Origin: Candidatus Bathyarchaeota archaeon B26-2
GTDB taxonomy: Archaea > Thermoproteota > Bathyarchaeia > Bathyarchaeales > B26-1
Length of the DNA stretch: 49,032 bases
NCBI GenBank assembly: GCA_001593935.1
Contig: LUCE01000005.1
Span: 1 to 49,032 of the forward strand
Direction: 5' to 3'
The notes under the pieces are model-generated. The model saw nothing but the letters and a program-made list of their open reading frames with translations. It searched no databases and was not told the origin of the DNA. How positions within the stretch are numbered: position 1 is the stretch's first letter; the number at the start of each line of letters is the position of its first letter. Below are positions 16,106-19,531 of this stretch, in pieces. A program made the position numbers and the translations under genes.

Positions 16106-17890
16106 TCAGATTTCCTCCAAGGCCGCTCTCTCTCGCGCCCCCTCAGTCTCTTTCCTTATATCCCTAAATCTCCGGGCAATCGTGAATATCTTTTGTCTTC
16201 TGGAGAGACTTCCCAGCTCCAAGTCTGCTACTCCTCTAAGCAGACCCTTCATCATCCTGATCTCGTTCTTAACAGCTTTGTCGGCCAGATATAATAGTTG
16301 ATTGTGGCCGATGGCCTCTATTATCTCGGGGTTGTCGCACTTCGAGAGGAGACATAGTATGAAAGAGTCGAGGGGGTTCTCCTCCGCCCCCTCCCAATAA
16401 GGATAGATCTTAGCCTTCCTACCTCTCTCTAGAACCGTTATCTCCGCGATAAACTTTTCATCGGTCTTAGGGTTGTAGAACCGGTCGTAGAGAAACGTCG
16501 GCGATCTTACCGCCTTGTCAGATTTGAACTCTCTAAGTTGAAAGTATCCCCTCACGAATTGGCGTTCCAACGAGACCGCCCGCCTCGCAGCCCTCAAAGG
16601 GACTTTTCCGTCTCCTTGAATCAAGGTTGTGAAGCAGGAGTCGTAGCCTATGGTGCGCCACGGCGCCTTAAAGAGGCCGGGGTTCGTGCCGCTTAGGATC
16701 GTGAGGAATGCCCTGTCGTGCTTGAGGTTCGGCAGTTTCTCATCTGCGGGGATTAGGCCTTCCACCTTGGCGTAGGGAATTACGGCTCGAAGAAACTCCG
16801 AGGCCGAAGTATCCTTCGCGATCCCTACGACCAGCACACCTCGCTCCAGAGCTTTCTCTCTTAAGATGTGAATAAGTATCGTGTTGATCGTGTTCAGGTC
16901 TATAACGGTCAGCCACGACTCGCCCTTATCGATCATAAGCGGATGCTCAGAAGAACTGAAGACCCTCTCAACGATCGAGAAGGCAACCTCTTTTACTCTA
17001 AGCCAGTAATATCTAACATTATCCTGTAACGCCAGCGGCGCATCCTCTTTGAGAGGATCGTCGACGAATAACCCGTCATCTGAATCCTTATGCATCTGCA
17101 TCAGTTTTTTGAGGAGTTTTCTCCCCCGTTTCTCGGAGATGCCTAGTTTCTCGTAAAGTTCCTCATGAGAAAGACTCTTAACTTTCAGTAACGTCTGTAT
17201 TGCTAAGTAAGGAAGATACTGGGGTCTCCTCGATATCCAGTTGTTACCAGAACCCAGAACTGAGACAAGTTTAAAATCGAGGAGGGTTACGGGACCATGA
17301 GAGGTCTTAATCCCTAAGAGGGGAGATCTTCCCCGTCTTAGGAAGAAGCGGAAGTCGCGGGATAGGGGGCCGAAGGTTCCGGAAAGGGGTCGGTCGAGGA
17401 AGATCAGGCGCACCATCCCGTCGTCGACCGCCTTGACGGCTAAGTAGAGCTCAGCCATAGTCATCAAAGCGAAGGGTATCCTCTCAGCTGACCTCCCCAC
17501 ATCCTGTTCCATAGACTCCGTCTCGTCGGTTACTTGGAAGAGGTCTTCGGTCCATAGAGGAACGGAGGCGGAGGCCGCGAGGCGTCTATCCCTCTCAACT
17601 CTGTCGAGATGAAAACGTACATCCTCGTCTAAGGTAAAGTTGCACCTGAAACCCGTGGCGCAGACATAGAAGAGCAGCATCTCAAGAAGTTCGTCGTAAT
17701 CCATAGACCCATCTATGCCTACGGCTGCGTACTCACCGGGTTCAAGAAGAGAAGATTCGGGATCAAAGCCTCCACGCCTCTTTATGCAGGAGAGAAGGTT
17801 CTCTCTATTCGTTAACTCCCGTATCCTCCGTGTAAGTAGGTCAGCCAGATCAGACGTCTGGCTCCTAAGCCTCTCGGCAAGAAAGCCCAA
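16106..17890 (-). CDS. nurA: NurA-domain nuclease, enlarged, with inserted HTH
   Basis: This 594-aa protein is larger than common NurA proteins (roughly 340-450 aa). Nuclease motifs are visible in order: AVGIDGSMDYDE with Asp60, RLIFLDRPLSGT with Asp167, and VVGIAKDTSASEF with Lys359/Asp360. The C-terminal HNQLLYLADKAVKNE fits the final NurA helix. Between the second and third motifs, residues about 225-265 (LSHEELYEKLGISEKRGRK at the core) look like an inserted helix-turn-helix. NurA digests 5' ends while HerA, encoded 2 bp downstream, moves the DNA. The start is TTG with GGGGT upstream. The promoter bears a perfect 14-bp palindrome between TATA box and start site, implying repression. Confidence 0.88.
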   Translation of the reverse strand: MGFLAERLRSQTSDLADLLTRRIRELTNRENLLSCIKRRGGFDPESSLLEPGEYAAVGIDGSMDYDELLEMLLFYVCATGFRCNFTLDEDVRFHLDRVERDRRLAASASVPLWTEDLFQVTDETESMEQDVGRSAERIPFALMTMAELYLAVKAVDDGMVRLIFLDRPLSGTFGPLSRDFRFFLRRGRSPLLGIKTSHGPVTLLDFKLVSVLGSGNNWISRRPQYLPYLAIQTLLKVKSLSHEELYEKLGISEKRGRKLLKKLMQMHKDSDDGLFVDDPLKEDAPLALQDNVRYYWLRVKEVAFSIVERVFSSSEHPLMIDKGESWLTVIDLNTINTILIHILREKALERGVLVVGIAKDTSASEFLRAVIPYAKVEGLIPADEKLPNLKHDRAFLTILSGTNPGLFKAPWRTIGYDSCFTTLIQGDGKVPLRAARRAVSLERQFVRGYFQLREFKSDKAVRSPTFLYDRFYNPKTDEKFIAEITVLERGRKAKIYPYWEGAEENPLDSFILCLLSKCDNPEIIEAIGHNQLLYLADKAVKNEIRMMKGLLRGVADLELGSLSRRQKIFTIARRFRDIRKETEGARERAALEEI

Positions 17891-17911: not shown

Positions 17912-17935
17912 TTGTGAATTCACAAATAAACCTTT
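17912..17935 (-). promoter_or_regulatory. nurA-herA promoter with TTGTGAATTCACAA operator
   Basis: On the minus strand AAAGGTTTATTT (TATA-like, about 17935-17924) overlaps the start of a perfect 14-bp palindrome at 17912-17925. The expected transcription start is near 17901. The spacing and 16-17 bases of sequence match the promoter of the membrane-anchored winged-helix gene (2795-2833). A bound dimer would block RNA polymerase, so I infer repression of nurA-herA by the protein that binds TGTGA-N2-TCACA. Confidence 0.7.
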
Positions 17936-18017
17936 TATTGAGAACATGAGGTTACAGAAAAAGGAGAGGAGTCGACACGCTACTCTAACGGACAGTCCGA
18001 TGACCGACTTTTGCAGT

Positions 18018-18146
18018 TCGAAAGATTTAATAAGGTTCATGTAAAAGTATATCTTCCACCTTCCAAGAAGCTCGGACTGCTGATGCAACCATCTCCCGAT
18101 GAAGCGGTCCGACCTTCTTGGAAGGCTTCTTCTATTTTCTTTTTAA
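18018..18146 (+). ncRNA. Candidate small hairpin RNA with own promoter
   Basis: Left arm 18059-18080 and right arm 18104-18125 form a 22-position stem with 20 Watson-Crick pairs, one G-U and one C-C mismatch, closed by a 23-nt loop. Upstream is a TATA-like GATTTAATAAGG (about 18022-18033), placing a start near 18048. Downstream is a pyrimidine tract with TTTTCTTTTT (18133-18144) typical of archaeal termination. The predicted RNA would be about 95-100 nt. It lies in the 252-bp gap between the divergent nurA promoter and the end of the M20 peptidase gene. I do not recognise the RNA. A transcription terminator read from the minus strand is less likely, as no T-tract follows on that strand. Confidence 0.5.
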
Positions 18147-19531
18147 CCCTTCTCAGCTGTTTTACGGAGTCTTTCTGGTTTATAGGAGGTTATGAGGGTC
18201 GCCACGAACTTTATGGACCTTATGTAATCCTCTATCCTTATGTTCTCGTTTGGAGCGTGTACGTTCGAGCGGGGATACCCGACGCCTCCGCCGGAAGCCA
18301 CCGGGATTCCCATCCAGTTTCTGATCGTATAGATAGGGCTTGTTCCAGCCGTTGTAGGCAAGACAACCGGTTTATTTCCGTAGACCTTCTCAACGGTCTC
18401 GATGAAGTACCTTGCGAAGGGGTCGCTGGGCGAGGTTTTAGCAGGCTCGTACCCGCTGTAACTCACGACCTCGATATCGCTGAAGCCTTCTCTATCGAGG
18501 TGTTCCCTGAGCATCTTGAGAAGTTTCCTAGGTTTCTGAGCCTCCACTAAACGGAAGTCCATCTTGGCCACAGCCTCACAAGGCAAGACTGTCTTGGCTC
18601 CTGGTCCCTTATAGCCCGCGTCTAAGCCGCAGATAGTCGCGGTTGGGGAGAAGTATAACGCCTTTAGAGCCTCGAACCCCTTCAAGCCTCCTAGAAACTC
18701 CTTCAGTCCGAGCTCCCTCTTCTTCTCTTCCTCCTCGAAGGGCGCCTCCTCTAAGAGTTTCCTCTCCACGTCGGATGGCTCAACAACATCGTCGTACCAG
18801 CCGGGAATCCTAATCTTTTCGTCGGGTCCCTTGATTGTGGATAGAGCCCAGACTAGGCGCCAAGCCGGGTTCGGGATGAGCGGGGCCGACGACGAGTGAG
18901 CGTCCCTCTTAGCTCCCCTCGCTCTAAACTCGACGTATATGATGCCCTTCGCCCCAAGGGTTATAACCGGCCGGTTCTTCTCGTCTACTCCGTCTCCTTC
19001 CCAAATGTAGCCGTCCGCCTTTAACAAGTGGGCATGCCCTTTAACGAAGTTCGGTAGGTGGGGGCTTCCAACCTCTTCTTCTCCTTCAACCAGAAACTTC
19101 AAGTCGATGGGAACCTCGCCGAGAACATCCCTAACCGCCTTCACGGCCTCTATGCGAGCCATGACGTTTCCCTTGTTGTCCGAGACTCCTCGAGCGTAGA
19201 TCTTGCCGTCTCTTATGGCGGCCTCGAAGGGAGGCGTCTCCCAGAGCTCTAAGGGTTCAGGCGGCTGGACATCGTAGTGGTTGTAGAAACCTATGCACCC
19301 GTTTTTCTCTTTGCCTCCACGAACCTCCCCTAAGACTACGGGGTTTCCCTCCTTAACAGGGTATACCCGAGCAGAGATTCCGGCTTCTTCCATAAGTTCT
19401 CGGAGGAGTTCGGCGCACTCTTCTATTCCTACGCCTTGGGCCGAGACGCTCGGTTGCCGGCAGAGTTTCCTCAAATCCTCAACATACTCGTCGGCCTTCG
19501 ACTCTATATATCTCATAAGGCTGCCGATCAA
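18143..19531 (-). CDS. M20 family dipeptidase/deacylase
   Basis: This 462-aa zinc hydrolase of the ArgE/DapE/CPG2 family has likely metal ligands in YNHYDVQP (His85), ARGVSDNKG (Asp118) and EGEEEVGSP (Glu151/152), plus a C-terminal NVHAPNE His. The lid or dimerisation domain begins near GAKGIIYVEFRARG. It hydrolyses a peptide or amide bond of a small substrate; length and motifs suit the M20 dipeptidase subgroup. The start is TTG preceded by GGTGA; ATG at 19516 is the alternative. No signal peptide, so cytosolic. Not in an operon. Confidence 0.88.
   Translation of the reverse strand: MIGSLMRYIESKADEYVEDLRKLCRQPSVSAQGVGIEECAELLRELMEEAGISARVYPVKEGNPVVLGEVRGGKEKNGCIGFYNHYDVQPPEPLELWETPPFEAAIRDGKIYARGVSDNKGNVMARIEAVKAVRDVLGEVPIDLKFLVEGEEEVGSPHLPNFVKGHAHLLKADGYIWEGDGVDEKNRPVITLGAKGIIYVEFRARGAKRDAHSSSAPLIPNPAWRLVWALSTIKGPDEKIRIPGWYDDVVEPSDVERKLLEEAPFEEEEKKRELGLKEFLGGLKGFEALKALYFSPTATICGLDAGYKGPGAKTVLPCEAVAKMDFRLVEAQKPRKLLKMLREHLDREGFSDIEVVSYSGYEPAKTSPSDPFARYFIETVEKVYGNKPVVLPTTAGTSPIYTIRNWMGIPVASGGGVGYPRSNVHAPNENIRIEDYIRSIKFVATLITSYKPERLRKTAEKG

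Follow-up and report, generated by a model that had tools for sequence, protein, structure and literature searches.

A probable stand-alone small-RNA gene with a near-invariant hairpin loop in one family of Bathyarchaeia

Among the archaeal small RNAs described so far, the sRk RNAs of Pyrococcus abyssi are encoded in intergenic regions and have BRE/TATA promoters, and some of them carry K-turns which are bound by L7Ae (PMC3124441). The sRNA162 of Methanosarcina is a lineage-limited, structured RNA with compensatory changes, for which masking of a ribosome binding site serves as the model (PMC3510493). Kink-loop RNAs that bind L7Ae are represented by the C'/D' motifs of archaeal box C/D RNAs and have been studied by L7Ae RIP-seq (PMC5539422). 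Here, we describe a hairpin in a 49,032-nucleotide stretch of the genome of Candidatus Bathyarchaeota archaeon B26-2 (contig LUCE01000005.1), hereafter the window. Like the sRk RNAs, it is intergenic, possesses its own BRE/TATA promoter, and has a structure conserved in one lineage, but it consists of a single short hairpin of 67 nt for which a kink-loop is only a possible reading (PMC3124441). With sRNA162 it shares the limitation to a lineage, the structured nature, and the compensatory changes; sRNA162, however, is longer, contains three stem loops, and employs a single-stranded linker, whereas the only candidate pairing region here is the hairpin loop, and its target is hypothetical (PMC3510493). 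As in L7Ae-binding kink-loop RNAs, an apical YYGA opposite AUGA could give tandem G-A pairs and a bulged U, but in contrast to C'/D' kink-loops there is neither a box C/D at the ends nor a single-stranded guide beside D' (PMC5539422).

No Rfam family matched in the window at the gathering threshold, nor convincingly at E 10, the best sub-threshold match being mir-1253 with 21.6 bits vs a threshold of 103. An archaeal box C/D guide was rejected because the ends form a 12-bp stem and the D' guide position is paired, and a box H/ACA RNA because the stem is broken only by a 1x1 mismatch and the T-rich 3' sequence is without ACA. A conserved promoter of its own is located upstream of the conserved intergenic structure, which is the feature that characterizes stand-alone archaeal sRNAs. 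Since it has no Rfam match, fails the guide features, and fits the BRE/TATA type, the hairpin may be classed as a new family-restricted archaeal intergenic sRNA.

Structure and distribution of the hairpin

The features of the locus, in coordinates of the window, are as follows:
16106..17890, - strand: putative nurA, named from its place beside herA, not adjoining the hairpin in B17_G17
18017..18033, + strand: archaeal-type promoter, composed of a BRE-like TTCGAAA (18017-18023) and a TATA box TTTAATAA (18026-18033)
18055..18059, + strand: predicted start of transcription, placed some 30 nt past the TATA start on the basis of the spacing
18059..18125, + strand: small-RNA hairpin with a 12-bp lower stem, a 1x1 C-C mismatch, a 9-bp upper stem, and a 23-nt apical loop
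18071, + strand: 5' member of the C-C mismatch that is invariant in the alignment, opposite 18113
18089..18105, + strand: invariant apical stretch CCAUCUCCCGAUGAAGC, identical in three genomes, a probable binding surface
18126..18145, + strand: T-rich tract, probable terminator, running into the peptidase 3' end on the other strand
18143..19531, - strand: M20 family peptidase (Pfam PF01546, E 3e-31), the neighbour common to all three loci

An inverted-repeat search returned arms at 18059-18081 and 18103-18125, which are 91% complementary and have 21 nt between them, and in the predicted fold 12 perfect pairs are followed by the 1x1 C-C mismatch (18071/18113) and by 9-10 more pairs. The stretch 18018-18146 folds with -43.1 kcal/mol vs a mean of -24.3 for shuffled sequences (z -5.56), and none of 200 dinucleotide shuffles was as stable. 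Among the 80-nt stretches of the 49-kb window the hairpin ranks third in stability, the two more stable ones both lying within long ORFs. Near-perfect arms around a loop, the first 12 pairs being perfect, had been proposed at this position by an earlier sequence-only reading and are borne out by these data; the TATA-like box upstream and the T-rich tract right after the hairpin, which belonged to the same proposal, are likewise present.

In a search with a covariance model, relatives of the hairpin were found in two genomes, Ca. Bathyarchaeota B26-1 (LUCD01000060) and B17_G17 (QMYL01000109); the two orthologues score 98 bits (E 1.9e-20) and 87 bits (E 1.2e-17). Apart from B26-2 itself, its GTDB family is represented in the search set by these two genomes alone; B26-2, B26-1, and B17_G17 are labelled G000, G001, and G002 there, respectively. 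Elsewhere in the order the model gave no convincing match, nor did it in the remainder of the class (257 genomes in all) or in a phylum sample of 398 genomes, the latter two sets having been scanned with stricter filters by which weak matches can be lost. One match (G213, E 0.0019) is a short hairpin that shares CTTCCAAGAAGCTC without the loop and was treated as chance. The exact 17-mer of the loop occurs 33 times across all GTDB contigs, where by our estimate about 30 matches are expected by chance, and only two Bathyarchaeota contigs among the 33 fit the model as a hairpin. No counterpart was detected in the flanks downstream of peptidase orthologues in other families. Taken together, the comparison suggests a family-restricted small RNA, so far found in three related species.

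Genomic neighbourhood

The hairpin lies between the end of the peptidase gene at 18143 and the start of putative nurA at 17890, both genes being encoded on the - strand, at a distance of 18 bases from the former and about 170 bases from the latter. The same M20 peptidase gene adjoins it in all three genomes. Putative nurA gave no match in a Pfam search and owes its name to the position next to herA. A link of the hairpin to nurA, beside whose promoter the sequence-only reading had placed it, is not upheld by this distance nor by the comparison: in B26-1 the hairpin is located between peptidase and nurA, and in B17_G17 it lies past the peptidase, the next gene being that of a ribulose-phosphate epimerase. 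Because the hairpin of B17_G17 thus adjoins the peptidase gene without having nurA on its other side, a function as nurA leader was ruled out. Among the window ORFs there is no + strand gene close downstream, and therefore the hairpin is not the leader of a + strand mRNA either. The second copy of CAGTCCGA (17993-18000) within a short palindrome, CGGACAGTCCG (17989-17999), which had also been pointed out earlier, does exist, but neither sequence is kept in the sister genome B26-1, so that a meaning of this repeat is unsupported; since they are absent there, the palindrome and its repeated core are probably due to chance.

As a separate observation, a perfect palindrome, TTGTGAATTCACAA, is present at 17912-17925 next to the putative promoter of nurA (AATAAAAGGTTTATTT, - strand). 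B26-1 retains the outer TTGTG...CACAA of this palindrome but has a different centre, a pattern that might be expected of a regulator site.

Promoter, strand, and evolution of the stem

The BRE/TATA stretch is identical at 16 of its 17 positions (94%) in both relatives. In the comparison with B17_G17, identity amounts to 94% in the promoter, 82% in the hairpin, and 76% in the tail vs 44% in the region 5' of the promoter. The distance from the TATA start to the stem start is exactly 33 nt in each of the three genomes, and this spacing is unchanged while the sequence between the two elements has drifted to 60% identity. In archaea, transcription usually starts about 30 nt past the TATA start; from this and the fixed spacing, the start is predicted at the foot of the stem. 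The T-rich tract is probably a transcription terminator, and the sequence 3' of the hairpin is T-rich in both relatives too, the T-tract of B26-1 being weak.

Within the stem, pairs 1-67 and 19-49 have changed from C-G to U-A, with both sides altered. B17_G17 lacks both partners of one pair, and one of its G-C pairs has become A-U, a change which the alignment tool leaves uncounted and which was read by eye. Pair 7-61 is either A-U or G-U and pair 20-48 either U-G or C-G, and the C-C mismatch is invariant in all three genomes. The search for covariation that had been advised thus revealed changes that preserve pairing, but 61 of 500 shuffles of the alignment columns gave as high a value, and covariation among these three sequences, two of them close, is not significant because of their small number. 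On the - strand the wobbles 7-61 and 20-48 become A-C mismatches, and they are standard pairs on the + strand only, which identifies the + strand as the constrained one.

The strand assignment bears on the question whether the hairpin could be part of the - strand, i.e. a 3' UTR element of the M20 peptidase mRNA that serves as end stabiliser, terminator, or processing site. Its location some 18 nt beyond the stop codon of the peptidase gene, which it adjoins in all three genomes, is in agreement with such a role, as is the slightly better fold of the - strand, where the apical loop CAUC-GGGA-GAUG is GNRA-like. We nevertheless consider it unlikely, as two variable positions are A-C on the - strand and G-U on the + strand, the + strand has a conserved promoter whose distance to the stem is fixed, no long T-run directly follows the hairpin on the - strand, a terminator does not need an invariant loop, and a counterpart of the hairpin past the peptidase is absent from other families.

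The + strand RNA might alternatively be a cis-antisense or convergent device that enters the peptidase gene at the 3' end and regulates its expression. An overlap with the peptidase gene of a few bases only, an adjacency that could be plain synteny of close relatives, and a stem and an invariant loop that a simple antisense overlap would not need make this quite unlikely, even though in each of the three genomes the hairpin gene is convergent with the peptidase gene and abuts it, and its T-tract overlaps the gene end.

The length of the inverted repeat would also be compatible with an element acting at the DNA level, either a mobile remnant or a protein-binding or recombination site. The hairpin is present in a single copy in the B26-2 genome, so that the genome-wide check for a scattered mobile palindrome was negative and a MITE or REP-like palindrome, which should have dispersed copies, was rejected; no copies occur in viral contigs, the promoter is conserved at fixed spacing, and pairing is kept via G-U pairs, which are meaningless in DNA. 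A DNA-level role therefore appears most improbable.

The apical loop and the proposed function

Within the loop, four freely variable bases are followed by 17 bases, CCAUCUCCCGAUGAAGC, that are invariant in the three genomes. The YYGA at 18080-18083 and the AUGA within CCAUCUCCCGAUGAAGC opposite to it are both present, with invariant GA positions, and allow an L7Ae-type kink-loop to be drawn with tandem G-A pairs, a bulged U, and a G-C closing pair. The RNAalifold consensus picks a CAUC-UCCC-GAUG mini-hairpin over the kink-loop, and the invariance itself prevents a choice. Neither of the two folds fully explains the invariance of CAUCUCCC, and for this reason we propose that this segment pairs with a G-rich RNA; the binding partner of the loop is probably a protein or a G-rich site in an mRNA. 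A small peptide was rejected, as the reading frame that follows AUGAAGCG is not maintained (MKRSDLLG... vs MKRLTFLE...).

Complements of the loop are not commoner in B26-2 than those of a reversed-pattern control (49 vs 61), and most of the inspected matches lie in ORFs encoding FVGR-like peptides. One candidate site overlaps the start of a provirus capsid gene in both B26-2 and B26-1 and allows 13 pairs including G-U, which is about what chance could give. Genes for a phage-type capsid (PF05065) and a cement protein (PF09956) are located on B26-2 contig C63 (L197:748-2138, L196:608-1986) and have close homologues on B26-1 contig C113; both genomes probably harbour an HK97-type provirus. Complementarity of the loop to rRNA was at shuffle level, tested on 16S and 23S rRNAs of other families, as no 16S was found in the three hairpin genomes. 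The loop resembles the pre-23S leader (AUCUCxCGAUGAAGC, 14/15), but this likeness was dismissed, since by our estimate about 0.2-1 such matches per genome are expected by chance; of that leader, other families and B17_G17 retain no more than about CUCACGAUGA. Apart from the hairpin, a GUGAG stem in the pre-23S leaders of the order is followed by a conserved 3' arm, CUCACGAUGA, some 45 nt ahead of the 5' end of the 23S, and this element (L074:1501-1558; also L099, L100, and L103) can be drawn as a K-turn.

Because the promoter is fixed, the stem keeps its pairing, and the loop keeps its letters, a transcribed hairpin with a recognition loop is suggested. We regard it as very probable that the + strand from 18059 to about 18145 constitutes a stand-alone small-RNA gene belonging to one family of Bathyarchaeia; the idea of an independent small RNA, put forward by the sequence-only reading, is strengthened by the conserved promoter, the fixed spacing, the pair-keeping changes, the + strand G-U pairs, and the single copy. 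We infer that the BRE/TATA promoter would start a transcript of about 75-90 nt at or within a few nt of the stem foot, which would end at the T-rich tract. The near-uninterrupted stem would protect and display the apical loop, whose 17-nt stretch is under strong sequence constraint and would act as a binding surface; that the RNA works through its loop in trans is favoured with some confidence. For the reading as a whole, a stand-alone sRNA gene whose stem displays a trans-acting loop, we estimate a probability of roughly 0.6. We further infer from the GA-rich loop edges that they may form an L7Ae-type kink-loop. The C-rich CAUCUCCC would, as a conjecture, be available for pairing with a target RNA at a G-rich, Shine-Dalgarno-like site, on the pattern of sRNA162 (PMC3510493), and an antisense action on an mRNA is accordingly put forward tentatively. 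A regulatory RNP specific to Bathyarchaeia, in which L7Ae occupies the kink-loop and the C-rich loop pairs with Shine-Dalgarno-like sites, restraining the HK97-type provirus via the capsid start, is highly speculative.

Among the seven papers that a full-text literature search for Bathyarchaeota and 'small RNA' returned, none had a title about small RNAs, and the small RNAs of Bathyarchaeia have apparently hardly been studied. The predicted promoter, strand, and start together with the constrained loop provide a concrete, checkable entry into this field, and metatranscriptomes of sediments holding these archaea could confirm the small RNA.
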